Part shown: piece by piece, positions 6,606 through 32,964 of the stretch
Layout: every line of letters begins with the position of its first letter
Position numbering within the stretch: the stretch's first letter is position 1
NCBI GenBank assembly: GCA_947447975.1
Contig: CANFLU010000006.1
Coordinates: 1-64,000, forward strand
From: Comamonadaceae bacterium
GTDB taxonomy: Bacteria > Pseudomonadota > Gammaproteobacteria > Burkholderiales > Burkholderiaceae_C
Direction of reading: 5' to 3'
DNA: 64,000 nucleotides
Translations under genes and position numbers: made by a program
The notes under the pieces: generated by a model
What the model was told of the DNA's origin: nothing
Databases searched by the model: none
What the model saw: the letters and a program-made list of their open reading frames with translations, nothing else

Positions 6606-6677
6606 TGGGCGACACAAGTTTCTAACTTGCGCCCCCGCCGCTTGCTGTATAGGTATTTCGCTCTACCGTAGCTAGAC
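6606..6677 (-). pseudogene. Degenerate tRNA copy resembling tRNA-Val
   Basis: Read on the minus strand, this 72-base stretch keeps blocks of the intact tRNA-Val at 7395-7469. Shared on the plus strand are TGGGCGA (acceptor 3' side), CAAGTTTC and AACTTGCG (T arm, with one loop change), CCCC, GCTCTACC (D arm) and AGCTA. The 5' acceptor strand and the anticodon arm no longer pair with the rest, so it should not make a functional tRNA. It has the same orientation as the intact gene about 790 bp away, with the MntA/HepT pair between. It could be an attachment-site copy left by integration, or a plain tRNA duplication. Confidence 0.6.
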
Positions 6678-6697
6678 TTATGACGCTAAAATAATTC

Positions 6698-7006
6698 ATG
6701 CACCCAGCAATTGGCAACCACAAAAGCGATATCTCCTCGATCTGCAAACGCTACCGCGTAAGCAGATTAGACGTGTTCGGCTCTGCTGCTCGAAAGAATG
6801 ATTTCAAACCTGAAAGCAGCGATGCGGATTTTTTAATCGAATTCGCACCTCATGTTCAAGTTGGCCTAGATGAATTTATGGGCATCAAAATTGAGCTCGA
6901 AAAATTGCTTGGTAGACATGTTGATTTGATTGAGCCAGATGCCGTGGTCAACCCCTATGTGCTTGCAAGCATTAAGCGCGACCGTGAATCGATTTATGCA
7001 GCATGA
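6698..7006 (+). CDS. mntA: MntA-type nucleotidyltransferase antitoxin
   Basis: A 102-residue minimal nucleotidyltransferase (MNT domain). The signature FGSAARK...SSDADFLIEF supplies the GS pair (28-29) and two catalytic acids (Asp42, Asp44), with a third in HVDLIEP (Asp76). In characterised pairs this protein AMPylates the HEPN toxin HepT and so neutralises it. The stop overlaps the start region of hepT by 11 bp, the usual two-gene layout. The region is clearly more AT-rich than its neighbours and is flanked by tRNA sequences, which points to acquisition by transfer. Confidence 0.88.
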   Translation: MHPAIGNHKSDISSICKRYRVSRLDVFGSAARKNDFKPESSDADFLIEFAPHVQVGLDEFMGIKIELEKLLGRHVDLIEPDAVVNPYVLASIKRDRESIYAA

Positions 7007-7346
7007 TCCCCGCGCTTTTCTTTGGGACGTTCGCGAATCGGCCATAGCTATCCAAACGTTTGTAGCCGACTTAGACATCAATTCATTCTCGGCTAACTTC
7101 ATGGCACAAGCCGCCGCAGAAAGAAAGTTTGAAATCATCGGCGAGGCCCTCAATCAACTTTCCAAGATTGATCCCAACTTAGCTTCAAAAATTCCTGACC
7201 TAGCGCAAATCGTTGCATTTAGGAACCAGCTCATTCACGGCTACTCCAAAATAAGAGCGAGTACGGTGTGGACAGTCATACAAGACTCATTGCCGCAACT
7301 TCTCGAATGTGTGAGTGCATTACTCGATGCCTTAGGTGATGATTAA
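6996..7346 (+). CDS. hepT: HepT-like HEPN ribonuclease toxin
   Basis: A 116-residue, all-helical HEPN protein (DUF86/HepT). The catalytic RNase motif R-x4-H with a following Tyr is present as RNQLIHGY (Arg76, His81, Tyr83). The Tyr is the residue AMPylated by MntA in studied systems. I chose ATG 6996, giving MQHDPRAFLWDV, over a start at 6930 inside mntA because the domain begins there and the gene overlaps mntA by 11 bp. It ends just before a strong hairpin shared with the tRNA on the other strand. Confidence 0.87.
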   Translation: MQHDPRAFLWDVRESAIAIQTFVADLDINSFSANFMAQAAAERKFEIIGEALNQLSKIDPNLASKIPDLAQIVAFRNQLIHGYSKIRASTVWTVIQDSLPQLLECVSALLDALGDD

Positions 7347-7352
7347 AAAAAG

Positions 7353-7386
7353 AAAAAGCGCCTAAGATTTCTCTTAAGCGCTTTTT
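7353..7386. terminator. Bidirectional rho-independent terminator between hepT and tRNA-Val
   Basis: AAAAAGCGCCTAAG pairs, with one G-T pair, with CTTAAGCGCTTTTT around a short loop. This gives a 14-bp stem with A-rich and T-rich flanks on opposite sides. The T-run after the stem suits hepT on the plus strand. On the minus strand the A-run becomes a T-run, which suits the tRNA-Val transcript. Confidence 0.8.
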
Positions 7387-7394
7387 GCGTTTTT

Positions 7395-7469
7395 TGGTGG
7401 GCGATGCAAGTTTCGAACTTGCGACCCCTGCAGTGTGAATGCAGTGCTCTACCCCTGAGCTAATCGCCC
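7395..7469 (-). tRNA. tRNA-Val (anticodon CAC)
   Basis: The minus strand gives a full cloverleaf. The acceptor GGGCGAT pairs with ATCGCCC, the D arm contains GGGGTAGAGC, and the anticodon stem CTGCA/TGCAG encloses the loop TTCACAC (anticodon CAC, reading GUG). The T arm has TTCGAAA. The discriminator is A and CCA is encoded (7397-7395). It lies 26 bp downstream of dnaQ on the same strand. A decayed copy lies at 6606-6677. Confidence 0.93.
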
Positions 7470-7495
7470 TGAAACCTGTTCAGGAAAGCCAACGA

Positions 7496-8206
7496 TTATA
7501 CGGTTGATTCTGCGCGTGCCCAGACCGTCTTCCCGGCGCTCGCCTTATCGATTTCGACCAAGACCTTGGCATGGGCTTGCAATTCCTGTTCGTTGGCTTC
7601 CAACACCGTCAACACCAGGGCAGAAAAATCCACCTGGCTACCGGTGGCCTGTGTGCTGACATCGCTGCGGCTGTCCATCAGCAACGCGTCCTGCCCGCGT
7701 GTCATATTGATATACACCTCGGCCAGCAACTCGGCGTCTAGCAAAGCACCGTGCAGCTGGCGGCCGCTGTTGTCCACTTCCAACCTTGCGCACAAAGCGT
7801 CCAGGCTGTTGCGCTTGCCCGGGAACATTTCCTTGGCCATCAGCAAGGTGTCAATCACGCCACTAACGCAGGTATGTAGCGGCGGCTTGCCCAGCAAAGA
7901 CAATTCGCGGTTCAAAAAACCGATGTCAAAGGGCGCGTTGTGGATGATCAGTTCAGCGCCCTGGACAAATGCTAAGAGCTCGTCGGCCACCTGCGCGAAC
8001 TTGGGCTTGTCGCGCAAAAAATCATTGCTGATGCCGTGGACGCGCAAAGCGTCTTCATGGCTGTCCCGTTCCGGGTTGACGTAGAGGTGTAGCTTATTGC
8101 CGGTGAGCTTGCGGTTGACCCATTCCACGCAACCGATTTCAATGACGCGGTCGCCCTGCTCGGCAAATAAGCCGGTGGTTTCGGTGTCTAAAAATACCTG
8201 GCGCAT
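7496..8206 (-). CDS. dnaQ: DNA polymerase III epsilon subunit (3'-5' exonuclease)
   Basis: A 236-residue DEDDh exonuclease. Exo I is FLDTETTGL (Asp7, Glu9), Exo II is IIHNAPFDIGFLNREL, and Exo III is the final His/Asp pair in LHGALLDAELLAEVY. The protein proofreads as part of the Pol III core. The C-terminal tail, about 60 residues, should contact the alpha subunit. It is the last protein gene of the minus-strand isc run, 3 bp after fdx, so it is probably co-transcribed, followed by tRNA-Val. Confidence 0.93.
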   Translation of the reverse strand: MRQVFLDTETTGLFAEQGDRVIEIGCVEWVNRKLTGNKLHLYVNPERDSHEDALRVHGISNDFLRDKPKFAQVADELLAFVQGAELIIHNAPFDIGFLNRELSLLGKPPLHTCVSGVIDTLLMAKEMFPGKRNSLDALCARLEVDNSGRQLHGALLDAELLAEVYINMTRGQDALLMDSRSDVSTQATGSQVDFSALVLTVLEANEQELQAHAKVLVEIDKASAGKTVWARAESTV

Positions 8207-8209
8207 GGC

Positions 8210-8548
8210 TTAGTGGTTTTCTTTGGCGTGGTTGATAGAGTACTTGGGAATTTCCACCACCAGGTCTTTGTTGCTAATGATGGCCTGGCAGGACAGGCGC
8301 GAATTGGGCTCCAGCCCCCAGGCGCGGTCTAGCAAGTCTTCTTCGGTTTCCTCGGCTTCATTGAGCGAGGCCAGTCCTTCGCGCACGATGACGTGGCAGG
8401 TAGTGCAAGCGCAGCTCATATCGCAGGCATGCTCAATGGCAATGCCGTTTTCGAGCAAGGCCTCGCAAATCGTGGTGCCGGCAGCAGCGCGCACTTGGGC
8501 TCCTGCGTGGCAGTATTCGGTGTGGGGCAGTATGTGGATGATGGGCAT
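8210..8548 (-). CDS. fdx: ISC-type [2Fe-2S] ferredoxin
   Basis: A 112-residue adrenodoxin-like ferredoxin. The cluster ligands are C-x5-C-x2-C in CDMSCACTTC, plus a fourth Cys in RLSCQAI. The C-terminal part LVVEIPKYSINH is typical of bacterial Fdx. It supplies electrons to IscS/IscU during cluster assembly. It follows hscA by 14 bp in the isc operon. Confidence 0.94.
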   Translation of the reverse strand: MPIIHILPHTEYCHAGAQVRAAAGTTICEALLENGIAIEHACDMSCACTTCHVIVREGLASLNEAEETEEDLLDRAWGLEPNSRLSCQAIISNKDLVVEIPKYSINHAKENH

Positions 8549-8562
8549 AGCCTAGGGGGGGT

Positions 8563-10437
8563 TCAGGTTTTAAAGCTGTCTTGCAGCGAGTCCAATGTGT
8601 GGCCGGATAAAGCCTGGGCAATGCCGCGGTTCATGCGTTGGGCGGCAAAGGCTTCTGTCACTTGCGCCAGTATTTTGCTGCTCGCTTCGATCTGCGCCGC
8701 GTCCTCGCCCTGCGCAGAGGTCTGCAAGGCCGCGATAGCTCCATCCACGGCCGCGCGCTCCTGGGCGCTGAGCAAATCTCCATCGGCATGCAATGCGGTT
8801 TGCGTAGCCAGCACCAAGCGCTGCGCATCGACACGCGCCGCGACCAGTGCGCGGGCACGCATATCCACTTGGGCGGTGCTAAAGCTTTCTTGCAGCATGC
8901 GGGCGATTTGATCGTCACTCAATCCGTAAGATGGTTTCACATCAATTTGCGCCTCGACCCCGCTCACTTGCTCGCGCGCGCCCACATGCAGGAGCCCATC
9001 GGCATCGACCGTGAACGTGACGCGGATACGGGCCGCACCCGCCACCATGGGAGGGATACCGCGCAATTCAAAGCGGGCCAGGCTGCGGCAGTCGGCTACC
9101 AAATCGCGCTCGCCCTGCACCACATGCAATGCCAGCGCGGTCTGCCCGTCTTGGTAGGTGGTGAAGTCTTGCGCCATGGCGGTCGGAATAGTCTGGTTGC
9201 GCGGCACGATGCGCTCTACCAAACCACCCATGGTCTCTATGCCCAGGGACAAGGGAATCACATCGAGCAGTAACAAATTGCCTGCCGGGTTATTGCCCGC
9301 CAATTGATTGGCCTGGATGGCTGCGCCCAAGGCCACAACTTCGTCAGGGTTCAGGTTGGTCAGTGGCGCTTGGCCAAAAAATTCTGCCACCGCTGCGCGA
9401 ACCTGGGGCATGCGGGTGGAGCCGCCTACCAGCACCACGCCTTGGATGTCTGCCGTATGCAAACGGGCATCGCGCAAAGCTTTACGCACCGCCTGCAGGG
9501 TGCGCGCCGTCAAGTGCTGTGTGGCGGCTTCAAACTCCGTGCGGTTGATCGATACATCGATGCGCCCATTCTCCAAGCTTATTTCTACAGGCGCAATGTC
9601 TTCTTCGGACAAAGCCTCTTTGCAAGCACGCGCTGCTTGCAATAACACAGCCTGGTCCTCCAGGCCTTGCAGCGCGACACCCGACTGGGCCACTATCGCA
9701 TCGGCTAACGCGCGGTCGTAATCATCACCGCCCAAGGCCGAATCGCCGCCAGTGGCCAAGACCTCAAATACGCCGGCTGACAAACGCAAAATAGAAATAT
9801 CAAAGGTGCCGCCGCCCAGGTCATAGACCGCATAGACGCCTTCACTGGCATTGTCCAAACCATAGGCGATGGCGGCAGCCGTGGGTTCGTTAATCAGCCG
9901 CAAAACATTCAAGCCCGCCAGTTGCGCCGCGTCTTTAGTGGCTTGGCGTTGTGCGTCGTCAAAATACGCCGGGACGGTAATCACCGCGCCAAAAATATCG
10001 TCATTAAAGCTGTCTTCCGCACGAAAGCGCAAAGTTGCCAAAATCTCCGCGCTCACTTCCACCGGGCTTTTCTCGCCGGCAATGGTGCGCACCTTGACCA
10101 TACCCGGGGCATCGACCAAGGCATAGGGCAAACGGTCTGCATCGGCGATGTCGGCCAGGCCCCGGCCCATCAAGCGCTTGACCGATGCAATCGTGTTGCC
10201 AGGGTCCGCGCTTTGCTGCTGCAATGCCTCTTGCCCGATCTGGCGGCGCTGCGCATCGAGGTAGCGCACCACGCTGGGCAGCAAGACGGCGCCGGCCGCA
10301 TCGGGCAGGCATTCGGCCACACCGTTGCGCACCGCAGCCACCAAGGAATGCGTAGTACCCAGGTCGATGCCTACGGCAATGCGCCGCTCGTGCGGATTGG
10401 GCGATTGGCCCGGTTCAGAAATTTGGAGCAAGGCCAT
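8563..10437 (-). CDS. hscA: Fe-S assembly Hsp70 chaperone HscA
   Basis: A 624-residue Hsp70 homologue of the HscA subfamily. The N-terminal ATPase has [25 protein letters not shown] and [13 protein letters not shown]. The substrate-binding domain holds [17 protein letters not shown]. It uses ATP, stimulated by HscB, to release clusters from IscU to acceptor proteins through the LPPVK motif of IscU. The size and position between hscB and fdx match the canonical isc operon. Confidence 0.95.
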
Positions 10438-10444
10438 AAAAGAA

Positions 10445-10960
10445 TCAGCTTAGCGCGTCAAAGCGCGCGTCCAGGTCGTGGCGGAATTTTTCAATAAACA
10501 TCAGGCTGCGCACCAGGGGTACGGCAGCGGCGTAGTCCTGCTGTTCGTCCAGCACTTGGGCACACTGCCTAAGCAAGTCCTGCTGCGTCGAGTCTACCGA
10601 AGCGGCCAGGGTCTCTAGGTCGGCCAGCTTGCGGGCATCGTCCAGCGCTTCACGCCAGTCAATTTGCTGCATCAAAAAAGCCGGAGCCATGGCGGTATTG
10701 CTATGCGCTTGGATAGGCGCGCCGTGCAGCTCGCACAAATAGGCGGCGCGCTGCAAGGGATTTTTCAGGCGCTGATAGGCCTCGTTAATGCGCACCGACC
10801 ATTGCATGGCCAGGCGCTGTGCGGCGCCACCTTGGGCGGCAAACTTGTCCGGATGGGCCTGGGCTTGCAAGGATTTCCAGCGCGAATCTAAGGCGCTGCG
10901 CTCTTGCGCAAACTGCTCGGTCAGGCCAAACAGTTCAAAGTCATTGGATTGGAGGTTCAC
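10445..10960 (-). CDS. hscB: Fe-S assembly J-protein co-chaperone HscB
   Basis: A 171-residue J-type co-chaperone. The N-terminal J domain (NDFELFGL...) contains the essential HPD tripeptide in QAHPDKFA. The C-terminal three-helix domain binds IscU. It overlaps the iscA stop by 4 bp and precedes hscA by 7 bp, so it is translated from the isc operon message. Confidence 0.93.
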
Positions 10961-11280
10961 ACCCGGAAGGACTCACCGCAGCCGCATTTGTCGCGCTCGT
11001 TGGGGTTGTTGAAGCGAAAGCCTTCGTTCAGTCCCTCGCGCACAAAGTCCAACTCGGTGCCATCGATGTAGGCCAGGCTTTTCGGGTCCACCAGCACTTT
11101 GACGCCATGGCCTTCAAACACAATGTCATCGCCACTGAGTTCATCGACATATTCCAGTTGGTAGGCCAGGCCCGAGCAGCCGGTGGTGCGCACACCCAAA
11201 CGCACGCCCACGCCTTTACCCCGCTTGGTAAGGTAACGGCTTACGTGGCGGGCTGCGGCCTCAGTCAGTGAAACTGGCAT
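10957..11280 (-). CDS. iscA: A-type iron-sulfur carrier IscA
   Basis: A 107-residue A-type carrier. The three conserved cysteines are present: one in TGCSGLAY and two in the C-terminal CGCGESF. It takes part in building or delivering Fe-S clusters. It starts 1 bp after the iscU stop and overlaps hscB by 4 bp. Confidence 0.94.
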
Positions 11281-11281
11281 A

Positions 11282-11668
11282 TCAGTTCAGGTGTTTTTTC
11301 TTGTAATCGTCGACCGCTGCCTTGATAGCGTCTTCGGCCAAGATGGAACAGTGAATTTTGACCGGGGGCAAGGCCAGTTCCTGCGCGATTTCGCTGTTTT
11401 TGAGCGCTGCTGCTTGGTCCAAGGTTTTGCCCTTGACCCATTCGGTGACCAAAGAGCTCGATGCAATCGCCGAGCCACAGCCATAGGTTTTAAAGCGCGC
11501 GTCTTCGATCACGCCGGTGAGCGGGTTGACCTTGATTTGCAGCTTCATCACGTCGCCGCAGGCGGGCGCGCCCACCATGCCGGTGCCTACCGTGTCATCG
11601 CCTTTGTCAAAGCTGCCCACGTTGCGGGGGTTTTCATAGTGGTCTACCACTTTGTCGGAATAAGCCAT
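11282..11668 (-). CDS. iscU: Fe-S cluster scaffold IscU
   Basis: A 128-residue scaffold protein. The ATG at 11668 gives [18 protein letters not shown], the usual IscU start; the frame stays open further upstream but without homologous sequence. The cluster ligands are seen in [16 protein letters not shown] and HCSILAED, and the HscA-binding LPPVK motif is present. IscS delivers sulfur to it, and HscA/HscB release the cluster. Confidence 0.96.
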
Positions 11669-11714
11669 GGTGTTTACCTCGTCGTATGTGAATTCAGGGG
11701 CCGGTGCCGGGTGC

Positions 11715-12935
11715 TTAATGCGCTGCCCATTGGATGGTGGAAATGTCAATACCTTCTTGGTACATATCCCACAGAGGGCTTAGGTCGCGCAATTTGGCGA
11801 CATGGAACTTGATCGTCTCCACCGCATAGTCAATTTCGGCCTCGGTGGTCCAGCGGCCAATCGTCATGCGCAAGCTGCTGTGTGCCAACTCGTCGCTGCG
11901 GCCCAGGGCGCGCAGCACATAGCTCGGCTCAAGGCTAGCCGAGGTGCAGGCCGAACCGCTGCTCACTGCCAGGCCTTTGATGCCCATCATCAGCGACTCG
12001 CCCTCAACGTAGTTGAAGCTCATGTTCAGGTTGTGCGGCACACGCTTTTCCAAGTGGCCGTTGATAAAGACCTGCTCCACGTCTTTGAGGCCCGCCAACA
12101 TACGCTCGTGCAAAGCCCTGATGCGGATGTTTTCGCCGGCCATTTCTTCTTTGGCGATGCGGTAGGCCTCGCCCATACCCACAATCTGGTGCGTAGGCAA
12201 AGTGCCGCTGCGCATGCCGCGCTCATGCCCGCCACCGTGCATCTGCGCTTCCAGGCGGATACGCGGCTTGCGGCGCACAAACAAAGCGCCAATGCCTTTG
12301 GGGCCATAGGTTTTGTGCGACGTCAGGCTCATCAAATCGACCGGCATATCCGCCAAATTGAAATCCACCCGCCCGGTAGCCTGCGCGGCATCCACATGAA
12401 AGATCACGCCTTTTTCGCGGCAGATCGTGCCAATGGCTTCGATGTCCTGAATCACGCCGATTTCATTGTTCACAAACATCACGCTGGCCAAAATCGTGTC
12501 TGGCCGGATGGCGGCTTTGAAGACTTCCAGGTCCAGCAAACCGTCTTCCTGCACGTCCAGGTAGGTCACTTCAAAACCTTGGCGCTCCAGCTCGCGGCAG
12601 GTATCGAGCACGGCTTTGTGCTCGGTCTTGACCGTAATCAGATGCTTGCCCTTGGTCTTGTAAAAATGCGCGGCGCCTTTGATGGCCAGGTTGTTGGACT
12701 CGGTAGCGCCCGAGGTCCAAACAATTTCACGCGGGTCGGCGCCGATCAGCGCTGCGACCTGGCCGCGTGCGTTTTCTACGGCCTCTTCCGCCTCCCAGCC
12801 CCAGGCGTGGCTGCGCGAGGCGGGATTACCAAAATGCGCGCGCAACCAGGGCACCATGGCGTCCACCACCCGCTCATCGCAAGGGTTGGTGGCGCTGTAG
12901 TCCATGTAAATCGGAAAGTGGGGCGTGGAGTCCAT
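11715..12935 (-). CDS. iscS: Cysteine desulfurase IscS
   Basis: A 406-residue PLP enzyme. The PLP-binding Lys is in [12 protein letters not shown], and the flexible loop carrying the catalytic Cys is [15 protein letters not shown]. It starts [18 protein letters not shown]. It converts cysteine to alanine and passes persulfide sulfur to IscU and other acceptors such as tRNA thiolation enzymes. It lies 71 bp downstream of iscR. Confidence 0.96.
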
Positions 12936-13006
12936 AGCGGTGAGTGTTCAATCAATAAAAGGGCTTGTGCAGGTAGGCGGCCCTGAAGGGCTTTGCGCGC
13001 GGCGCG

Positions 13007-13543: not shown

Positions 13544-13566
13544 GGCGGGCTCCTGAATCGGGGTGT

Positions 13567-13591
13567 TAAGTTGACTAACGGACTCAAGTAT
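13567..13591 (-). promoter_or_regulatory. Type 1 IscR operator overlapping a -10 element
   Basis: On the minus strand this 25-base site reads ATACTTGAGT, then five bases, then TAGTCAACTT and A. It follows the E. coli type 1 IscR pattern (ATAnnTGACT...AGTCnnnTAT) at most conserved positions; the dyad halves are GAGT and AGTC. A -10 like TATACT (13592-13587) overlaps one edge, so bound IscR would block polymerase. Clear -35 not seen. Confidence 0.65.
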
Positions 13592-13648
13592 AACCAACAA
13601 CCTACTGATTTGCTCGGGTAAATAGACCGAGCGGTATTGATTTTGCCT

Positions 13649-13667
13649 ATCAAGCCCGCAGCGGCAG
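13649..13667. repeat. Left copy of uvrB 3'-end direct repeat
   Basis: The 19-mer ATCAAGCCCGCAGCGGCAG is identical to 14550-14568, the 3' end of uvrB. On the minus strand 13679-13650 reads [13 protein letters not shown], closely resembling the true UvrB ending ([14 protein letters not shown]) with one codon lost and a few substitutions. The similarity is therefore that of a partial gene copy and not chance. brnTA lies between the two copies. Confidence 0.7.
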
Positions 13668-13737
13668 CAGCACCTTGTCGCGCAACGCAAGGTCGCATGG
13701 CAAAAACTGTAGGGTGGGACGCGAACCGTTTTTCCTT

Positions 13738-13762
13738 TATATGCATATATTTATGCATATAA
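13738..13762. promoter_or_regulatory. Probable brnTA operator/promoter with paired ATGCATAT repeats
   Basis: Two copies of the octamer ATGCATAT, each centred on the palindrome TATGCATA, start 12 bp apart at 13741 and 13753, immediately before an AT-rich stretch and the brnT ATG at 13771. BrnA/BrnT complexes are known to repress their own promoter, and a duplicated palindrome here fits that role. Binding is inferred. Confidence 0.5.
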
Positions 13763-13770
13763 TAAATTGC

Positions 13771-14046
13771 ATGGAATTCACTTGCGACTTCGAGAAAAAC
13801 GCGATCAATGTGCGCGAAAGGCAATTGCCCCTGCTCGCCGCACGGATCATGTTTGACGCGGCGATGCTGGTGCGTGAAGACACCCGCAAGGCCTACCCCG
13901 AGCGCCGCTTTGTGGGCTACAACACGATTGAAGGGCGCTGGATGGTGGTGGTGTTTTGCTGTCCTGCGCCCGAGTTGACGCGCATCATTTCTTTCAGAAA
14001 GGCCAACGACCGTGAAACCAAAAAGCTTGAAACTCAAAGCCTCTGA
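13771..14046 (+). CDS. brnT: BrnT-type ribonuclease toxin
   Basis: A 91-residue BrnT protein (RelE-like fold) beginning MEFTCDFEKNAINVRER at ATG 13771, in front of which the paired repeats lie. Family landmarks are the N-terminal FEKNAINVRER, the central ERRFVGYNTIEGRWMVVVF and the C-terminal RIISFRKANDRE, where the basic RNase residues reside. The E-x-R-x4 end is typical. It overlaps brnA by 35 bp. Toxin-first order matches known brnTA operons. Confidence 0.85.
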   Translation: MEFTCDFEKNAINVRERQLPLLAARIMFDAAMLVREDTRKAYPERRFVGYNTIEGRWMVVVFCCPAPELTRIISFRKANDRETKKLETQSL

Positions 14047-14365
14047 GGCCGCACCGGCCATTGATTGGGCTGCGGTGGACGCAGCCCCAAAGGCCAGCCT
14101 GCCCGATGAAGAAAGCCCTGCGCTAAGCGATTTGCAGGCGGCGCAGTTGCGCCCGCTGGCTGATGCGCTGCCAGAGTTTTCTACCGGCAAGACGCGCATC
14201 ACCATCCACCTCGATGATGCGGTGTTGCAGGCCTATAAGGCGCGTGCCGGTGGGCGTGGATACCAGACGTTGATTAATGAGACCTTGCGCGATGCCATGC
14301 GCAAGGAGCAACTGACCGCTTTGGTGCGCGACGTGGTTCGCGAGGAGTTGCAGCGACAAGCATGA
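14012..14365 (+). CDS. brnA: BrnA-type antitoxin
   Basis: A 117-residue antitoxin with GTG start at 14012. The N-terminal part is flexible and should wrap the toxin. The C-terminal BrnA domain is a ribbon-helix-helix: TRITIHLDDAVLQAYKARAG then GRGYQTLINETLRDAM. The protein is somewhat longer than usual, with a C-terminal helix (LTALVRDVVREELQRQ). It probably binds the operator upstream of brnT. Confidence 0.85.
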   Translation: MKPKSLKLKASEAAPAIDWAAVDAAPKASLPDEESPALSDLQAAQLRPLADALPEFSTGKTRITIHLDDAVLQAYKARAGGRGYQTLINETLRDAMRKEQLTALVRDVVREELQRQA

Positions 14366-14391: not shown

Positions 14392-14549
14392 CATTGCCTT
14401 ATCAAGGCCGTTCCTGGCCGACCCACTACCAAAATACGCGGTTAACACCGACGCTGCACCAGCGCAGACCGAATAATCGTATCCGTCAAACGATTGCTGG
14501 CGGGCTGTCTTTGTGCCACTTAAAAGACAGTCCAGCATGGATGCTGCCC

Positions 14550-14568
14550 ATCAAGCCCGCAGCGGCAG
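14550..14568. repeat. Right copy of direct repeat (3' end of uvrB)
   Basis: This 19-mer, identical to 13649-13667, contains the last codons and stop of uvrB on the minus strand. The pair brackets a segment of about 900 bp holding brnTA and a short non-coding stretch. Confidence 0.7.
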
Positions 14569-16665
14569 TACCACGATGTTGTCGTGCCCGGCAGCGCCAA
14601 AGGCCTGTTCTTTCAGGATGGCCAGTTGGTCGCGCACCCGGGCGGCTTTTTCGAACTCCAGGTTGCGGGCGTGCTCCATCATGAGTTTTTCTAGGCGCTT
14701 GATCTCGCGGGCCACGTCTTTTTCGCTCATCTCCTCCACCTGGGCGCGCTGCATTGCGTCGCGCTCCAGACGATCCGCCTCTTTGCCGGCTTTTTCGCTG
14801 TAGACGCCGTCGATCAGGTCGCGCACTTCTTTGACGATGCTGCGCGGTGTGATGCCGTGCTCCAAGTTGTAGGCCACTTGGCGTGTGCGCCGCCGCTCGG
14901 TCTCGCCGATGGCGCGCGCCATAGAGTCGGTAATACGGTCCGCGTACAAAATAGCCCGGCCATGCAAATTGCGCGCGGCCCGACCTATGGTCTGGATGAG
15001 CGAGCGCTCGGAGCGCAGAAAGCCTTCTTTGTCCGCATCCAAAATCGCCACCAGCGAAACTTCGGGCAAATCAATGCCTTCGCGCAGCAGGTTGATGCCA
15101 ACCAGCACATCAAAAGCGCCCAGGCGCAAATCGCGCAGAATTTCCACGCGTTCCACCGTGTCCACATCGCTGTGCAGGTAGCGCACTTTGACGCCGTTGT
15201 CGCTCAAATAGTCAGTCAGTTGCTCGGCCATGCGCTTAGTGAGCGTGGTGATCAGCACGCGCTCGTTTTTGTCCACGCGAATGCGAATTTCCTGCAGCAC
15301 GTCGTCCACCTGCGAGCTGGCCGGACGCACTTCCACTTCCGGGTCCACCAGCCCGGTAGGCCGCACTAACTGCTCTACCACCTGGCCGGTATGGTCTTTT
15401 TCCCATTGCGCGGGCGTGGCGGAGACGAATACCGCCTGGCGCATCTTGCGCTCGAATTCTTCAAACTTCAGGGGTCGGTTATCCAGCGCACTGGGCAAGC
15501 GAAACCCATATTCCACCAGCGTCGTCTTGCGCGATCGATCGCCGTTGTACATCGCGCCGAGTTGGCCTATCAGCACATGGCTTTCGTCCAAAAACATGAG
15601 GGCGTCTTTGGGCAAGTAGTCGGTGAGTGTGGCGGGCGGTTCACCGGGTGCGGCGCCCGACAAATGGCGTGAATAGTTTTCAATGCCTTTGCAATGGCCG
15701 ACCTCGCTGAGCATCTCCAGATCAAAGCGGGTGCGCTGCTCCAGGCGCTGCGCTTCGACCAACTTGCCCATGCCCACCAGTTCTTTGAGCCGGTCCGACA
15801 ACTCGGTTTTGATGGTTTCCACCGCCATCAGCACCTGCTCGCGCGGCGTGACGTAATGGCTGCTGGGGTACACGGTAAAGCGCGGAATCTTCTGGCGGAT
15901 GCGCCCGGTCAGCGGGTCAAAGAGTTGCAGCGACTCGATTTCGTCGTCAAACAATTCCACGCGGATGGCCATCTCGCTGTGCTCGGCCGGGAAGATATCG
16001 ATGGTGTCACCACGCACGCGGAAAGTGCCGCGCGAAAAATCCATGTCATTGCGTTGGTACTGCATGCGTACCAGTTGCATGATCATGTCGCGCTGGCCCA
16101 ATTTGTCGCCAGCGCGCAATGTCATCACCATCTGGTGGTAGGCCTCGGGTTGGCCTATGCCGTAAATGGCCGAGACGGTGGCGACGATGATCACATCACG
16201 CCGCTCCAACACGCTTTTGGTACAGGACAGGCGCATTTGCTCGATGTGCTCATTGATCGCCGAGTCCTTCTCAATAAACAAATCGCGCTGCGGCACATAG
16301 GCCTCGGGCTGGTAATAGTCGTAGTAGCTGACGAAATACTCCACTGCGTTGTTCGGAAAAAACTCACGAAATTCGCTATAGAGCTGCGCCGCCAGGGTCT
16401 TATTGGGCGCAAAAATAATCGCCGGGCGGCCCAGGCGGGCTATGACATTGGCCATGGTGAAAGTCTTGCCCGAACCCGTCACACCCAATAAGGTTTGGAA
16501 CACTTCACCATCGCGCACGCCCTCGACCAGTTGCGCAATCGCCGTCGGCTGGTCACCCGCCGGTGGATAGGGCTGGTACAGCTCAAAAGGCGAATCCGGA
16601 AAACTGACAAATTCGCCCGGGCGCTGGTGCGCTACAACTTCAAGGGGTTCAGACATGGCTTGCAA
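14551..16665 (-). CDS. uvrB: Excinuclease ABC subunit B
   Basis: A 704-residue UvrB. Helicase motif I is [10 protein letters not shown], and the beta-hairpin region has [12 protein letters not shown]. Motif II (MFLDESHVL), motif VI (QTIGRAARN) and the C-terminal UVR domain that contacts UvrC ([18 protein letters not shown]...) are also seen. It verifies damage in nucleotide excision repair with UvrA and UvrC. The first start ([10 protein letters not shown]) and the ATG three codons on are both possible. Confidence 0.96.
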
Positions 16666-20452: not shown

Positions 20453-20950
20453 CTAAGGCGCAAGCGCCAAACGCGAAAACGCGCTTACCACTTCCGGCGG
20501 CGCTTGTACCAATTCAATCAGCACGCCCTCGCCCGAGATCGGGAATTCATCGCTGCCCTTGGGATGCAAAAAGCAAATATCAAAACCGGCTGCGCCCTTG
20601 CGTATGCCGCCCGGCGCAAAGCGAACGCCTTGCTGCATCAGCCAGTCCACTGCCCCAGGGAGGTCGTCAATCCACAGGCCGACGTGATTAAGCGGCGTGT
20701 TGTGTACAGCCGGTTTTTTGTCCGGATCTATGGGCTGCATCAAGTCCACTTCCACCTTGAAGGGGCCGGTGCCGATAGCGCAAATATCTTCATCGACGTT
20801 TTCGCGCTCGCTTTGAAACGTGCCCGTCATTTCCAGGCCCAGCATGTCCACCCACAAGGCTTTGAGCCGTTGCTTGTTCGGCGCGCCGATGGCGATTTGC
20901 TGGATGCCTAAAACTTTAAATGGGCGGGCTGTGCATGTGCTATTCGTCAT
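20453..20950 (-). CDS. VOC superfamily protein, probable methylmalonyl-CoA epimerase
   Basis: A 165-residue glyoxalase-fold protein starting [23 protein letters not shown] at ATG 20950, with AAGGAC upstream as ribosome site. Paired beta-alpha-beta modules carry metal-ligand candidates: LGIQQIAIG (Gln in place of the usual His), a Glu in [19 protein letters not shown] (His) and VLIELVQ (Glu). The fold also serves glyoxalase I, but it sits downstream of the carboxylase and mutase genes of the propionyl-CoA pathway, which needs an epimerase not otherwise seen here. The assignment rests on that context. Confidence 0.7.
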
Positions 20951-21112
20951 TTGGGCGTCCTTGCTTGATTCATTGGGAAAGTGCTGCTGCTTCCAGAAAG
21001 CCTGCTTCCCCTTGCTTGCCTGGGGGCGCATCAGCGGCCAGCGCTGTCTGACATAGCCACAGATTAGCTAGCAGCACCGCGGTGCAAGGATTCAATGGCA
21101 AGCGTATAAGTT

Positions 21113-21439
21113 TCATTTGGCGATTCCCAAAAATACAGCCAAGCCACGCTCGACCTGGGTCAACTGATCTGCACTCACGCGCCCCAAAGCAGGTCCAATT
21201 TTTTCGCGCTTGAGCGTCATGGCCTTGTCGATCATAATTTGGGATGTTTTTTCCAAGCCATTGCTTGCGGAGGCTGGCACCGTTACCCGCAACAAGGGCG
21301 CATCAACCAAGGTGCTGGTCACGAGCAAGACAGTGACGCTCTTGTGATTCGCAAAAAGTGGCGACTGGATCACCAACGCTGGTCGAGGTTTGCCAAAGTC
21401 GCCCTGTATGACAACTGACACCAAATCCCCGCGATGCAT
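21113..21439 (-). CDS. mazF: MazF/PemK-type endoribonuclease toxin
   Basis: A 108-residue PemK/MazF protein. MHRGDLVSVVIQGDFGKPRPALVIQ contains the G-D-x4...K-x-RPALV core typical of the family, and VTVLLVTSTL follows. It would cleave mRNA at short sequence motifs. It shares one base with the upstream antitoxin stop. The pair separates the probable epimerase gene from the carboxylase genes. Confidence 0.88.
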   Translation of the reverse strand: MHRGDLVSVVIQGDFGKPRPALVIQSPLFANHKSVTVLLVTSTLVDAPLLRVTVPASASNGLEKTSQIMIDKAMTLKREKIGPALGRVSADQLTQVERGLAVFLGIAK

Positions 21440-21660
21440 CAGGCCGTCCAGCCCTCTACGTCGGCCAAGCTTTCATGCATCAGCGCGTCCAGTGCTTCAG
21501 AATCCCGCTGATCGGATGCAGCCACTATCCTGACTTGGCGCTCGCACTCTAGTGCAAATTCTGTGGGCCGTGTGTCGGGAACCCAAATTTGCACAGGACG
21601 AAGACCCGCTTGGCGTAAAGCTTCGCGGTGTTTTTGAACTCGAATATTGACAGCAACCAT
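21439..21660 (-). CDS. mazE: MazE-family antitoxin (DUF3018-like)
   Basis: A 73-residue antitoxin with an N-terminal ribbon-helix-helix-like part (VAVNIRVQKHREALRQAGLRPVQIWVPD) and an acidic C-terminus (DALMHESLADVEGW) that would bind the toxin. This shape matches the DUF3018 antitoxins paired with MazF. Its stop overlaps the mazF start, so the two are coupled. Direct repeats just upstream form the likely operator. Confidence 0.82.
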   Translation of the reverse strand: MVAVNIRVQKHREALRQAGLRPVQIWVPDTRPTEFALECERQVRIVAASDQRDSEALDALMHESLADVEGWTA

Positions 21661-21669
21661 GAAACCTCC

Positions 21670-21714
21670 CCGTTACATGCAACAGCATATCAAAGCTTAC
21701 CGTTACAGGCAACA
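21670..21714 (-). promoter_or_regulatory. Direct-repeat operator upstream of mazEF
   Basis: CCGTTACATGCAACA (21670-21684) and CCGTTACAGGCAACA (21700-21714) differ at one of 15 positions and lie exactly 30 bp apart, close to three helical turns. They begin 10 bp upstream of the mazE start. Such placement fits cooperative binding by the antitoxin. Confidence 0.55.
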
Positions 21715-21728
21715 AGTTTTTTAATCGC

Positions 21729-26371: not shown

Positions 26372-26392
26372 CGGGTGCTTGGGGCTGCAGCT

Positions 26393-28603
<2,211 letters not shown>

Positions 28604-28697
28604 GGCACGGGCTTTCAGATCAGAAATTTGGCGGTTCACGCATTCTATCATTCATAATTATTAATACAAAACTGAATTAGGCCTTACAATTTCCGCC

Positions 28698-29333
28698 ATG
28701 CAAAGCCTCACCCTGACACCGCGCGCCCTGTACCAAGAGGTAGCGGAGTTGCTGCGCGAGCGCATTTTTTCTAACACCTTGCCACCGGGTAGCTGGATCG
28801 ACGAAATGGCGCTGGCCGAGGAATACGGCATCAGCCGCACGCCCTTGCGCGAGGCCATCAAAGTACTGGCCACCGAGGGCCTGGTCACTATGAAGGTGCG
28901 CCGTGGCGCCTATGTGACCGAGGTCAACGCCAAAGACCAGGCGGATGTGTATCACCTGCTCTCGCTACTCGAATCCGACGCGGCGGGCGTCGTGGCCCAG
29001 CGCGCCACGTCCGCACAGTTGCAAGACTTGCAAACCCTGCACACCGAACTGGCCGCTGCCGTGGACTCCACCGACCGCTTTTTTGAGGTCAATGAGCGCT
29101 TTCACATGCGCCTTTTGGAAATTGCCGACAACCGTTGGCGCGACCAGTTGTGCGCGGACTTGCGCAAAGTGATGAAGCTCAACCGGCACAACTCGCTGCT
29201 CAAAAGCGGGCGCGTGGCCGAATCGCTGCGCGAACACCAGGCCTTGATGGACGCGCTGCTAGCGCGCAACGAGGCGCTGAGCGTGCAGCGCATGCGCGAA
29301 CACTTTGCCAATGGCCTAGAGGCAGCCGGTTGA
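28698..29333 (+). CDS. GntR/FCD-family regulator of the propionyl-CoA genes (probable)
   Basis: A 211-residue FadR-type GntR protein. The N-terminal winged helix includes EYGISRTPLREAIKVLATEGLV, and the C-terminal FCD domain has metal-site residues (HMRLLEIADN, later EHQALMDALL). It is divergent from the mutase gene with a short AT-rich gap, which suggests it controls the mutase-meaB-pccB-pccA unit in response to an acyl-CoA or organic acid. The ligand is not known. Confidence 0.85.
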   Translation: MQSLTLTPRALYQEVAELLRERIFSNTLPPGSWIDEMALAEEYGISRTPLREAIKVLATEGLVTMKVRRGAYVTEVNAKDQADVYHLLSLLESDAAGVVAQRATSAQLQDLQTLHTELAAAVDSTDRFFEVNERFHMRLLEIADNRWRDQLCADLRKVMKLNRHNSLLKSGRVAESLREHQALMDALLARNEALSVQRMREHFANGLEAAG

Positions 29334-29611
29334 TGGCTGGCATGGCAGGCCGTACCGCGCCAGCGAGACTCGAGCGCTTTTATTTTCAGGAAAGCTATAT
29401 CGCCGAGCTTCAAGCCATGGCCAGCGAAGGCACGCACACGCCCGGCCCGGAGCTGGCGTTGATTTCACAACGCGACGAAGTGCTGGACTGGCGGGAAATT
29501 CAAGCGCGTTACCCAAAGGCTCGGCACATCCTGCTGCCCAATGGCGACCACGCGATCAGCGACTTTGCGCTGCATGTGGATGGGGTGTTGGGGTTTTTGG
29601 GATTGGTGTAG
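29333..29611 (+). pseudogene. C-terminal fragment of a YqiA-like esterase
   Basis: A 92-residue frame overlapping the GntR stop by one base. It matches the last third of YqiA/UPF0227-type alpha/beta hydrolases: LISQRDEVLDWREIQARYP carries the acid residue and PNGDHAISDF the catalytic His. The N-terminal portion with the serine nucleophile is absent. It is therefore probably a gene remnant. It directly precedes the vapBC operator. Confidence 0.6.
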
Positions 29612-29623
29612 CCAGACCTAGGG

Positions 29624-29658
29624 TTTGAATTACACTATTTCATATTTAGTAATTCAAA
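29624..29658 (+). promoter_or_regulatory. Inverted-repeat operator of vapBC
   Basis: TTTGAATTAC (29624-29633) and GTAATTCAAA (29649-29658) form a perfect 10-bp inverted repeat with a 15-base AT-rich centre, 14 bp before the vapB start. AbrB-type antitoxins commonly repress at such sites. Confidence 0.6.
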
Positions 29659-29672
29659 TCGCCGAGGATGCC

Positions 29673-29897
29673 ATGCAAAGCACCATCACCGCCCGAGGGC
29701 AAACCGTCGTTCCGGCTGCCATACGTCACCAATTCCACTTAGGCCCGGCAGACCGCTTGGAGTGGATTGTGGATAAAGGCGGCATCAGCGTGGTGCCGGT
29801 GCGCGCGCATCCGGTGCAAGCCTTTCGTGGGCAGGGCAAAGGAGGCGCCACGGCCCGGCTGTTGGCCGCGCGCAAAGCGGACGCGGCCCGCGAATGA
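29673..29897 (+). CDS. vapB: VapB antitoxin, AbrB/SpoVT type
   Basis: A 74-residue antitoxin from ATG 29673, with GAGG five bases upstream. The AbrB swapped-hairpin domain is seen in STITARGQTVVPAAIRHQF and DRLEWIVDKGGISVVPV. The basic, Ala-rich C-terminus probably occupies the toxin active site. It overlaps vapC by 4 bp (ATGA). Confidence 0.85.
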   Translation: MQSTITARGQTVVPAAIRHQFHLGPADRLEWIVDKGGISVVPVRAHPVQAFRGQGKGGATARLLAARKADAARE

Positions 29898-30310
29898 AGC
29901 GCTTTTTGCTAGATACCTCGGCACTACTCACTTTGCGTGACGACGAGCCCGGCGCCGACCGGGTGGCGCAGGTATTGGAAATGGCGATGCAAGGTCAAGC
30001 CAAGTGCTACGGTTGCTTTATGACTTTAATGGAAATTTTCTACCGCGTATGGCGCGACGAAAACGAAGCGGCGGGCCAACTGGCCTACCAGCAGTGCTTG
30101 GCACTGCCCATCGAGTGGTTGCACAACACCGAAACCTTGCTCGTAAAAGCCGCGCAATTTAAAGCCCTCTATTCTTTGTCTATCGCAGACGCGTGGATTG
30201 CCGCCTGTGCATCAGAACACAGCGCCGTCCTGTTGCACAAAGACCCGGAGTTCAAAGTATTAGCAGTCAGCCAGGAACTGCTGCCGCTAAAAATCAAAAG
30301 AATCAAATAG
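29894..30310 (+). CDS. vapC: VapC PIN-domain ribonuclease toxin
   Basis: A 138-residue PIN protein. The acidic metal-binding residues appear in order: LLDTSALL (Asp7), LMEIFYRV (Glu), SIADAWIAA (Asp) and LHKDPEF (Asp). It would cleave RNA, tRNA in many homologues. It ends just before the convergent EamA transporter gene. Confidence 0.88.
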   Translation: MKRFLLDTSALLTLRDDEPGADRVAQVLEMAMQGQAKCYGCFMTLMEIFYRVWRDENEAAGQLAYQQCLALPIEWLHNTETLLVKAAQFKALYSLSIADAWIAACASEHSAVLLHKDPEFKVLAVSQELLPLKIKRIK

Positions 30311-30323
30311 CGCGCAGGGCTTG

Positions 30324-31235
30324 CTAGCGCTCTTCCCGCTTCCCCGCCACCACCAGCCCCACGCCAGACAGAATCAGCACACCACCGATCAAGTGGTGCA
30401 GCTCCAGCGCCTCGCGCAAAAAAAGCCAGGCCACTAAGGCTGCGTACAAAGGCCCCAGGTACATGGTCATGGCTACCGGGCCGGGGCCTAGGACTGATTG
30501 GGTCCAACCGTAAATCCAATAGGCCAGCACGCCGGGAAACAGCGCGGCCATGACGATCAGCGCCAGCGCTTCAGTCCCCAAAGGCGGTCCGCCTTGCAGC
30601 AGTTCCCAGGCCGCAAACGGAGTCAGCACTACCACGCCACCGGCGCAAATCACGGCCAGTTGGGCGCTCGCGCTCATGGGGTTGCCCCAATGTTTTTGCA
30701 GCATGGAATAAGCAGCCCAGGCGGTGGCGGCAGCGGCGATCCACAAATCGCCCGGCACAAAAACCACTTGCGTGAGCAAGAGCCATTGGCCCTGCACCAC
30801 CACATGCACCACGCCCACCAGGGCAAGCACCACACCCAGCGCTTGGCGTTTAGAAAAAGCCTCGCGCAGCCACAGCACCGAGCCCACGGCAATCATCACC
30901 GGCGAGGCGGCGTAGATCAGCGAGATATTTATCATGGTGGTGGTTTGCCCGGCAAAGTACACCGCCGCACCGCAAATCCACATGCCGCAGGCGCCCAGCA
31001 GCAGGTAGCGGCGGGCGTGGGTACGCAGTTCTTGGCGGTGCTGCCAAAGCTCGGCGCGCGTGAACCAAGCCAATAGGGCCCCGGCCAGTGCCCAGCGGCC
31101 CCAGGCCAACACATGCGGCGTGATCACCCCAGGGGCGCGGCGGGCAATGACCGAATTGACTATCCACAAGAGCGGAATCACCCAGATCAGAAGTTTGGCG
31201 GCGCGCAGAGCCCCGGCACTTGGCTCAGGCTGCAT
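30324..31235 (-). CDS. DMT superfamily (EamA) transporter
   Basis: About 303 residues with ten predicted membrane helices in two EamA repeats. Landmarks are LLIWVIPLLWIVNSVIARRA at the start and LGPLYAALVAWLFLREALELHHLIGGVLILSGV near the end. I take MQPEPSAGALRAAKL at 31235 as start, which overlaps dusA by 11 bp. Family members export amino acids or other small metabolites; the substrate is unknown. Confidence 0.85.
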   Translation of the reverse strand: MQPEPSAGALRAAKLLIWVIPLLWIVNSVIARRAPGVITPHVLAWGRWALAGALLAWFTRAELWQHRQELRTHARRYLLLGACGMWICGAAVYFAGQTTTMINISLIYAASPVMIAVGSVLWLREAFSKRQALGVVLALVGVVHVVVQGQWLLLTQVVFVPGDLWIAAAATAWAAYSMLQKHWGNPMSASAQLAVICAGGVVVLTPFAAWELLQGGPPLGTEALALIVMAALFPGVLAYWIYGWTQSVLGPGPVAMTMYLGPLYAALVAWLFLREALELHHLIGGVLILSGVGLVVAGKREER

Positions 31236-32244
31236 GGTCTGCCACGACGGCGGCTTGCGCCATGGCGGCATGCGCGCGGGCCAGCACTTCACGCGGGGGC
31301 AAGGGCTTTAAGCGGTGGTCGCTCCAGACCTGGCGCCACAAGCGCGCCCCACGCCTTCCGTGGTACAGGCCGAGCATATGGCGGGCAATCGCATACCAGG
31401 GGCAGCCGTCTTCTAAAAAAGCGCGCTCCATATAGCGCACCATGGCTTCTTCCACTGCTTCGGGCAATGGTGGCAGGTGCGCGTCGCCATAAAACTGCGC
31501 GTCCCACTCGGTCATCAACCAAGGGCGGTAATACGCTTCGCGCCCGAGCATGACGCCATCGACTTGTTGTAAATGGGTGGCGATATCCGCATTGCTGTTG
31601 ATGCCGCCGTTCACGACAATCTGCAGGCTTGGAAAATCTTGCTTCAAGCGGTAAGCCATGTCGTAACGCAATGGCGGAATTTCGCGGTTCTCTTTGGGCG
31701 ACAGGCCTTGCAACCAGGCATTGCGCGCATGCACGATAAATACCTGGCAACCGGCTTGCGCCACCGTGCCGACAAAGTCGCGCACAAAACCATAGTCCTC
31801 GTTTTTGTCGATACCGATGCGGTGCTTGACCGTGACCGGCACATCCACCACATCGACCATGGCCTTGACGCAATCGGCCACTAGCGCGGGCTCGTTCATG
31901 AGGCAGGCGCCAAACGCGCCGCGCTGCACGCGCTCACTGGGACAGCCGCAATTGAGGTTGATTTCGTCATAGCCCCATTGCCCGCCCATGCGCGCGGCGC
32001 GCGCCAGATCCGCCGGTTCACTGCCGCCGAGTTGCAGCGCCAGCGGCTGCTCTTCGAGGTTAAAGCGCAAATGCCGCGCCACATCGCCATGCAGCAGCGC
32101 ACCGGTGGTCACCATCTCGGTATAGAGCCGGGTGTGGCGCGTCAGCAGGCGATGGAAATAACGGCAATGGCGGTCCGTCCAATCCATCATGGGGGCCACG
32201 GAGAGGCGCCAAGGGTTGTAGTGGGATGCTTCAGTATTTACCAA
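31225..32244 (-). CDS. dusA: tRNA-dihydrouridine synthase A
   Basis: A 339-residue flavoenzyme. SVAPMMDWTDRHCRYFHRLL at the N-terminus, NLNCGCPSERVQRGAFGACLM with the catalytic Cys, VTVKHRIGID and VNGGINS are the DusA signatures. It reduces uridines in the tRNA D loop (positions 20/20a in E. coli) using FMN and NADPH. Confidence 0.94.
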   Translation of the reverse strand: MVNTEASHYNPWRLSVAPMMDWTDRHCRYFHRLLTRHTRLYTEMVTTGALLHGDVARHLRFNLEEQPLALQLGGSEPADLARAARMGGQWGYDEINLNCGCPSERVQRGAFGACLMNEPALVADCVKAMVDVVDVPVTVKHRIGIDKNEDYGFVRDFVGTVAQAGCQVFIVHARNAWLQGLSPKENREIPPLRYDMAYRLKQDFPSLQIVVNGGINSNADIATHLQQVDGVMLGREAYYRPWLMTEWDAQFYGDAHLPPLPEAVEEAMVRYMERAFLEDGCPWYAIARHMLGLYHGRRGARLWRQVWSDHRLKPLPPREVLARAHAAMAQAAVVADHAA

Positions 32245-32332
32245 TGAAAAGACTCGTTTTCGTAATAATTATTTGGCGCAGCAAACCATCAGCAATGTGC
32301 ATAGATCCGCCACATGCGCCAGTCGGGGCATC

Positions 32333-32635
32333 TTATGCCGCGTGTGCTTTGCCCCTGCCAAGGGGTTTGAACAAAATTTGCAACTGCGAGTTGGTCGCTT
32401 GGGCAAATTTTGTCAGGGTGCGCATCGATGGCATAGAGGAGCCGCTTTCTAGTCGTGCAATCGTGGACTGCGATGTGCCCATTTTTGCGGCCAATTGCTC
32501 TTGAGAAAGTCCGCTCTGAATCCTGGCCTGTATCAGGTGCCGAGCCAGCTCAAACTCCATCTGCGAGACATCAAATTCCTGTTTGTATCCTGGTGTTTTG
32601 AGCCAGCGATTATGTAGCGTCGCAATTTTGGTCAT
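32333..32635 (-). CDS. higA: HigA-type XRE antitoxin
   Basis: A 100-residue protein with a helix-turn-helix in the second half (QSGLSQEQLAAKMGTSQSTIARLESG). It follows the toxin gene with a 4-bp overlap, the toxin-first order usual for higBA. It should repress its own promoter and neutralise HigB. Confidence 0.85.
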   Translation of the reverse strand: MTKIATLHNRWLKTPGYKQEFDVSQMEFELARHLIQARIQSGLSQEQLAAKMGTSQSTIARLESGSSMPSMRTLTKFAQATNSQLQILFKPLGRGKAHAA

Positions 32636-32964
32636 AGCAGTTTGGCCTCCTTGGCACGTAAGCTTGCAGTTCTAAGGGCGCCGGCAGGTGTCTTTTGCGA
32701 CTTCTTGACGAAAACGTGGACGACCACGACCCGTTTTTGCGTCGCCACCAGATAAATTCCGCGTCCAATTCCATCGCGACCACTGACCCGGATTTCCCAT
32801 AGCTTGTTGCTCAGACTTCTGATGTGCGGCATGCCCACCTTAAATGGGCCAAACTCCTCTATGAGCTGGGATACCCGGACAAACCGCCCTCGCATATCCA
32901 TTGGCAGCGCTTCTAATTCTCTGTCCACCACTTCGTTGAGGGTCTCTACCGTCCAGTTGGTCAT
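32632..32964 (-). CDS. higB: HigB-like (Gp49/RelE superfamily) toxin
   Basis: A 110-residue Gp49-type toxin from ATG 32964 (MTNWTVETL). Landmarks are GRFVRVSQLIEEFGP, HIRSLSNKLWEIRVSGRDGIGRGIYL and VVVVHVFVKKSQKTP with the catalytic basic residues. It would cleave ribosome-bound mRNA. TATAAT lies only 5 bases before the ATG, so the mRNA may be nearly leaderless. Confidence 0.83.
   Translation of the reverse strand: MTNWTVETLNEVVDRELEALPMDMRGRFVRVSQLIEEFGPFKVGMPHIRSLSNKLWEIRVSGRDGIGRGIYLVATQKRVVVVHVFVKKSQKTPAGALRTASLRAKEAKLL

Follow-up and report, generated by a model that had tools for sequence, protein, structure and literature searches.

Toxin–antitoxin modules, copies of neighbouring gene ends and reused chromosomal joints in a genus of freshwater Comamonadaceae

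Here we follow five toxin–antitoxin (TA) modules found in a 64,000-nucleotide stretch of DNA (the window, G000:C6:1-64000) from the draft genome of a freshwater Comamonadaceae bacterium (3.03 Mb, 107 contigs). Our results show that TA loci of three families in this genus are bracketed by direct repeats far more often than control windows are, and that many of these repeats are copies of the 3' end of a neighbouring gene. The joints between conserved genes that hold the five modules are empty in some relatives, several of them are occupied by unrelated TA families in others and, at uvrB, the outer side of the left-over copy of the gene tail carries the sequence of the empty site. This pattern resembles the 'insertion with long target duplication' reportedly described for restriction–modification (RM) systems by Nobusato in 2000 and Furuta in 2010, and links TA modules to a mode of mobility known from the other class of addiction genes. 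The second gene-tail copy that is left behind is a clue to how a TA pair moved, and our searches of the open-access literature turned up no report of such a signature for TA modules. A single genus offers many natural before-and-after pairs, an edge signature that can be counted and a simple statistical test.

The genus group consisted of 103 genomes; among named records, the top matches of the UvrB protein of the window were Comamonadaceae, several of them Rhodoferax. The iscR/uvrB joint was queried against 100 genomes of the same genus, the tRNA-Val joint against 103 and the other joints against 30 chosen relatives, from which 100 stretches and 60 further contig pieces of sequence were examined.

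Gene-end copies bracket TA loci across the genus

Direct repeats of 28-250 nt lying outside genes were collected from 596 kb of the relatives' contigs. Sorted by eye, they comprised copies of uvrB, tRNA-Val and gntR, together with elements like repetitive extragenic palindromes (REP) or miniature inverted-repeat transposable elements (MITE). A 400-kb sample of the window's own genome gave one repeat with a copy outside an open reading frame (ORF). This repeat (L263, contig C19, 11411-11502 and 13374-13464; 92 nt, 85% identity) brackets an AbiE-type pair with copies that comprise the beginning of a HigA-type gene and the sequence upstream of it.

The genus test used 30 loci each of the BrnT, Gp49 and HepT families, one per genome, drawn from 72, 69 and 58 genomes with matches and excluding the window's own; the toxin was taken as the centre of each locus. 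Direct repeats bracketed 18 of the 90 TA loci (BrnT 6, Gp49 5, HepT 7) and 1 of 600 control windows (0/200 in the own genome, 0/200 at named uvrB loci, 1/200 in the relatives' contigs), the controls having missed L263, the sole known repeat of the own-genome sample. A copy at the 3' end of an ORF was present at 13/90 TA loci and at none of the 600 controls. Fisher's P was 4e-16 for bracketing and 1e-12 for the 3'-end copy, with loci treated as independent though some share a site. Loci of at least 3.1 kb numbered 66, of which 16 were bracketed, 12 with a 3'-end copy. A further 150 own-genome windows and 22 integrase loci contained no bracketed case. Other modules flanked by copies of a neighbour's 3' end, for which the first-pass annotation had suggested looking, are thus recurrent in the genus.

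By eye, 12 of the 18 repeats are copied gene segments (L378, L379, L388, L423, L425, L428, L436, L439, L441, L443, L446, L457), a set that differs from the automatic 3'-end class of 13. Their sources are about six genes, named by eye as a PIN toxin, a VOC-type protein, a histidine kinase, a DUF924-like protein, an HsdS-like protein and one that received no name. The DUF924-like gene accounts for five loci in four genomes (L428, L436, L439, L441, L443), where HepT and Gp49 modules accompany the copied segments, and its end looks like another TA joint of the genus. Of the other six repeats, two were REP-like (L412, L450) and two perhaps integron-like (L383, L419), while the last two (L385, L399) were hard to class. 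Possible attC-like ends were noted by eye on the repeats flanking two modules, one BrnT and one Gp49 (L383, 1164-1260/2181-2277; L419, 1153-1195/1864-1906), and these two modules might be integron cassettes.

The five TA modules of the window

The modules and their edges are as follows.

6606..6636, minus strand: degenerate tRNA-Val(CAC) 3'-end copy on the left of MntA/HepT (27/31 nt versus 7398-7428)
6698..7006, plus strand: MntA-type nucleotidyltransferase antitoxin (Pfam PF01909, NTP_transf_2)
6930..7346, plus strand: ORF of the HepT-type toxin, true start probably downstream (PF01934, HepT-like)
7395..7469, minus strand: tRNA-Val (CAC) (ARAGORN), an integration site in relatives, where its 3' half occurs in arrays of copies
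13621..13678, minus strand: left-over copy of the uvrB 3' end, outer side matching empty sites (repeat and empty-site comparison)
13771..14046, plus strand: BrnT toxin (PF04365)
14012..14365, plus strand: ORF of the BrnA antitoxin (PF14384)
14522..14579, minus strand: functional uvrB 3' end plus 29 nt downstream (uvrB, 14551-16665; repeat comparison)
20930..21725, no strand: insert between voc and accC, absent in G002, G010 and G071, where both genes touch (comparison with relatives)
21113..21439, minus strand: PemK/MazF-type toxin (PF02452)
21439..21660, minus strand: MazE-like antitoxin (PF11455)
29371..29611, plus strand: remnant of the 3' part of an esterase gene that is whole in relatives; not an edge of VapBC (comparison with relatives)
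29673..29897, plus strand: AbrB-type antitoxin (MazE PF04014 above the cut-off, PrlF below it)
29894..30310, plus strand: PIN-domain toxin of the VapC type (PF01850)
32333..32635, minus strand: helix-turn-helix (HTH) antitoxin of the HigA type (PF01381, HTH_3)
32632..32970, minus strand: HigB-type toxin (PF05973, Gp49)

Every gene of the five modules has a Pfam match, which confirms the first-pass annotation in describing five modules of different families at these positions. It had also described at least two of them as bracketed by duplicates of a neighbour's 3' end, and both were found, a tRNA-Val copy at MntA/HepT and a uvrB copy at BrnTA. The direct-repeat search at the remaining three joints (voc/accC, gntR/dmt and dusA/tauE) yielded short, chance-like matches only.

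The whole draft genome contains 11 PIN matches (one below the cut-off), 7 BrnT, 2 Gp49 and 2 HepT. Four of these 22 fall within the 26 kb that hold the modules (Poisson P 4.7e-5, uncorrected for about 115 such windows and with the families chosen from the window's own content). We also scanned small ORFs (50-170 aa) of the 400-kb own-genome sample, covering 96 of 104 (eight at piece ends were omitted) and five ORFs from the right part of the window. The TA-type families found there, with one member each, were HI1420 antidote, DUF6088, HTH_3 and HicB; the DUF6088 and HTH_3 members belong to a single locus on contig C19, where AbiEii is present too. No direct plasmid source of the modules was found, the best plasmid relatives being 33-50% identical for HepT, BrnT and HigB and about 70% for MazF, with none for VapC.

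For every one of the five joints, two or more relatives have an empty site. The comparison that had been proposed as a check therefore revealed neither five modules ancestral at their sites nor a lack of empty sites.

The iscR/uvrB joint

In the window this joint holds BrnTA. Genomes in which iscR/uvrB is empty (five relatives) have a single uvrB end, and filled ones have two; in the window the two are 58 nt long and 76% identical. Compared with the empty sites, the 50-nt outer flank of the left-over copy matches G090, G010:C109 and G002 at 43-50 of 49-50 positions and the more distant G051 and G028 at 32-33, while the outer flank of the functional copy does not match. In four relatives (G010:C198, G021, G036, G078) BrnTA occupies this joint and shares the window's inner junction, which makes a single old event, followed by inheritance or spread, likely; the cargo of G063 is different. 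BrnTA identity is 95% in two of four relatives and 90% in the other two, with flanks at 88-92%. The brnT genes of G036 and G078 (L058, L059) lack 153 nt present in the window (13837-13989), and the toxin has therefore probably decayed in those two genomes.

We give hardly any credence to the idea that such differences are assembly artefacts of metagenome-derived drafts. Many of the relatives are indeed fragmented, and G010 has two iscR/uvrB contigs, one empty and one filled, but filled and empty states are repeated in several genomes, and single contigs cover the insert with both flanks. The idea that uvrB is a family-wide integrase target was also rejected: no tail copy was present at any of 79 named uvrB loci (the one remaining of 80 had too little sequence or no stop codon could be found). 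In 65 of the 79 named relatives iscR lies within 434 nt of uvrB, and at nine named loci with wider gaps no TA pair was recognised by eye.

Joints reused by unrelated TA families

Three joints of the window hold different cargo in sister species. At voc/accC, a PemK/MazE-like pair is present in the window, G056, G063, G036 and G021 (complete or cut by contig ends); in its place G019 and G090 have an AbrB-PIN pair, G058 a decayed one and G086 an unrelated large ORF. At gntR/dmt, the AbrB-PIN pair of the window occurs in G010, G021 and G090, with a 70% relative in G086; other occupants are HipBA in G090 and G071, a zeta-type toxin in G089 and, in G019, G063 and G058, a RelE-type protein (24.7 bits, below the cut-off of 27) paired with an MqsA-like HTH protein. 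At dusA/tauE, HigBA was found in the window alone among the genomes scored, and the alternatives are a GNAT protein in G058, which may be a TacT-like toxin, a HicB-like antitoxin in G056 and, in G086, G088 and G011, what looks by eye like a Crp-type regulator. The meaB/mcm joint, a sixth, is empty in the window; in G019, G051, G028, G090, G021 and G086 it contains a PIN toxin, which in most cases is accompanied by an antitoxin ORF (below the cut-off).

A table of 28 joints by 17 relatives was used to quantify reuse; one joint could be scored in no relative. Beyond the window's own modules the relatives contain seven TA types, six of which lie on the window's five joints, two of the six (GNAT and HicB) being weak as TA modules. 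The probability of this is 1.9e-4 for 28 equal joints, 2.3e-4 when weighted by coverage and 9e-4 for five of six. Two entries of the table are artefacts, since the large gap at phaC/rnfB reflects gene length and pccB/meaB arose from a mis-anchored match; neither was counted as TA, though both are included among the 13 'permissive' joints that have an insert in some relative.

We consider it very improbable that the joints held these modules ancestrally and that different lineages lost them. Decay does occur, at voc/accC in G058 and as short remnants (by eye) at meaB/mcm in G010 and G063, but different TA families are found at one joint in sister species, G028 is empty at four of the five joints (all that are scorable there), and the short iscR–uvrB distance prevails in the named relatives.

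Repeats of about 130-310 nt, REP- or MITE-like by eye, seem to fill the mfs/moly, rnfB/voc and mcm/gntR joints in G010, G036, G090 and G021.

How the modules may arrive

A second example of the tail signature comes from gntR/dmt in G089, where an 82-nt tail copy of gntR (95% identity) surrounds the zeta-type toxin and four relatives (G011, G024, G046, G088) have a single-copy empty site. Against these four, the functional tail matches at 74-76 of 82 positions and the left-over tail at 75-78. Long direct target copies stand on both sides of uvrB/BrnTA, of gntR/zeta and of the 18 genus loci (12 of them gene segments by eye).

Because the same joints are reused, we lean, without being quite persuaded, towards a homology-anchored import of the modules at gene tails, followed by swaps via their flanks, the joints serving as recurrent docking places. 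A small TA module would enter next to a conserved gene, a position most evident at the 3' end of the gene, through recombination anchored on a donor tail of that gene borne on the incoming DNA. The gene would retain a complete tail, with the module next to it and a second, useless tail copy on the far side, still attached to the original downstream sequence. A resident module would then spread to sister species, or be replaced there, by ordinary homologous recombination via the shared flanking genes, and its toxicity might help it to persist. Such swapping would leave clean joins and would let unrelated TA families succeed each other at one place. MntA/HepT would stand apart from this scheme, at a tRNA-Val integrase site.

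The anatomy observed (a gene with a full tail, the module, a second tail and the original downstream sequence) is equally compatible with one-sided homologous import and with insertion with long target duplication. The latter, in which a module inserts as a unit, tens to hundreds of target bases are copied and both tails are native, is possible, though we think it rather doubtful. The lengths of the copies, 35-311 nt, agree with it, as does the position of some copies away from 3' ends (L428, L457, and L263 in the own genome), and under it the 3'-end bias would be survivorship, because such insertions leave the gene whole. Duplication by itself leaves the reuse of joints unexplained, and the left-over gntR tail is no more decayed than the functional one. 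For some RM systems, a review describes insertion accompanied by target duplications on the scale of 100 bp (PMC3874152). As accounts citing Nobusato and Furuta present them, such RM systems resemble our modules as addiction-type units with no recombinase of their own, direct target copies of tens to hundreds of bases and empty sites in relatives; they differ in that the cargo here is TA, the copies are mostly gene 3' ends and the joints are reused by different families. A broader statement, that TA modules of the genus are self-standing mobile units that require no recombinase of their own, insert by copying conserved gene 3' tails, label every arrival with a second tail copy and thereby make certain gene joints reusable docking sites contested by a succession of unrelated TA families, seems to us somewhat unlikely.

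Several observations weigh against our preferred import at gene tails. Bracketing copies were found at just two of the five window modules, one of these at a tRNA, and at none of the 11 own-genome PIN loci. The identities of the tails reveal no donor, the uvrB tails being undecided and the gntR tails only slightly different. Downstream of the left-over gntR copy, the sequence matches G011, G024 and G046 (38-42 of 49 positions) and not G088 (22/49). The controls of the genus test were random windows and the 22 integrase loci, not size-matched accessory genes other than TA. The evidence for reuse weakens to P 0.015 or 0.034 when the 13 insert-taking joints alone are considered, and to about 0.04, calculated by hand, when the two artefact joints are removed from these.

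Plastic joints are known from enterobacteria. A review of TA evolution describes them in Escherichia coli and Salmonella, calling the mechanism unelucidated (PMC7167474). At relA-mazG and folA-apaH, as here, TA modules come and go between conserved genes and one joint serves different elements; unlike here, bracketing gene-tail copies go unmentioned in the section concerned (section 16 of PMC7167474). The dif modules of Acinetobacter plasmids, from what partial accounts convey, are likewise small TA-bearing modules moved without a recombinase of their own, but they form a plasmid system.

The tRNA-Val joint

MntA/HepT has an att-like copy of the tRNA-Val 3' end on its far side, whose 27 matches in 31 nt compare with 20 for the best of 300 shuffles and 19 for the best of 67 other window stretches. 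Between the tRNA and its copy lie MntA and HepT alone, with no integrase. G042 is 97-98% identical on both flanks of moly/tRNA-Val and lacks MntA/HepT. The sequence left of 6606 is unlike that of G042, so the outer flank of the copy does not correspond to the empty site, and the end of the moly gene is also different; a single simple insertion into a site like that of G042 therefore does not account for the window. MntA/HepT is probably a remodelled remnant inside a tRNA-Val integrase site.

In G090 (L037 2252-7103, G090:C20), the tRNA and four copies of its 3' half delimit four small units in tandem. No integrase was seen among their ORFs, and two of the units carry cupin and redoxin genes, which are not TA. 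Copies of 44-46 nt border integrase-less units in G090 and G010, and a 643-nt unit is 96% identical between these two genomes and has matches in 14 of the 103, several through the tRNA part only. Proteins of the phrog_1 phage integrase family are encoded beside tRNA-Val in G041 and G091 (Pfam gives SAM-like integrase domains only), and C-terminal relatives are present close to the 5' half of the tRNA in G021 and G056. In three genomes (G056, L036 ~890-970; G021, L039 ~1069-1150; G071, L041 ~106-180) the tRNA-Val 5' half alone is present, joined to other sequence at the anticodon loop, and the tRNA may be split at that site.

The reading in which an integrase acting in trans inserts small non-autonomous elements at specific sites therefore describes this joint well; extended to gene 3' ends in general, it is improbable. 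The uvrB end, with its tail single in all 79 named relatives, is not a common target; the length of the copies differs by gene and case, and integrase loci are not themselves bracketed. A 137-aa integrase fragment had no match in the own genome, where other integrases were not sought. The first-pass annotation had inferred that the five modules share a mode of arrival, for instance as tiny non-autonomous elements that target gene 3' ends. The elements find a counterpart in the integrase-less units at tRNA-Val, and do not extend to all five modules; a single mode for all five was rejected. Two of the five have bracketing copies, the fragment beside VapBC is a separate deletion, no copies were seen at voc/accC and gntR/dmt of the window, identity switches at the HigBA joint, and tRNA-Val stands out as an integrase site where small integrase-less units form arrays.

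In the parts of the source that concern them, tandem ssrA islands and cis-mobilizable elements (PMC3146451) are likewise integrase-less units between direct repeats of an RNA-gene 3' end, comparable with those of G090. Ours differ in size, about 0.3-2 kb at tRNA-Val, and in the involvement of protein-gene tails without a known integrase.

The voc/accC, gntR/dmt and dusA/tauE joints

In genomes where voc/accC is empty, voc and accC touch or overlap. The mazEF identity among filled genomes is 93-97%, versus 84-92% for voc and accC_1; the excess of module over flank identity, seen here and for BrnTA in two of four relatives, is modest and could be explained by selection.

A third module had been described as abutting a 3' gene fragment, which is the esterase fragment beside VapBC. 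The fragment is real, but an intact esterase ORF of 199 aa or longer lies ahead of VapBC in G010 and G021, and an intact esterase without VapBC is present in G078, G036 and G056. The fragment is therefore a separate deletion, and its reading as an insertion scar was ruled out.

Across HigBA, identity to G042 shifts from 85-96% in dusA to 96-100% rightwards, in a genome 58% complete whose contig starts inside dusA. This switch at the joint hints that HigBA may have been imported together with its flank. HigBA lies just upstream of dusA, as do the dusA-specific islands in what their description covers (PMC4482086), but those islands measure 30-60 kb and have an integrase, and the HigBA module is below 1 kb with no direct repeat seen. 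A dusA island was accordingly rejected, with neither a direct repeat of the dusA 5' region nor an integrase found at the joint. In G051, by eye, a HigBA relative (83%) lies between an FKBP-type gene and a remnant bearing the 3' end of that gene, next to a piece of an integrase and a tRNA.

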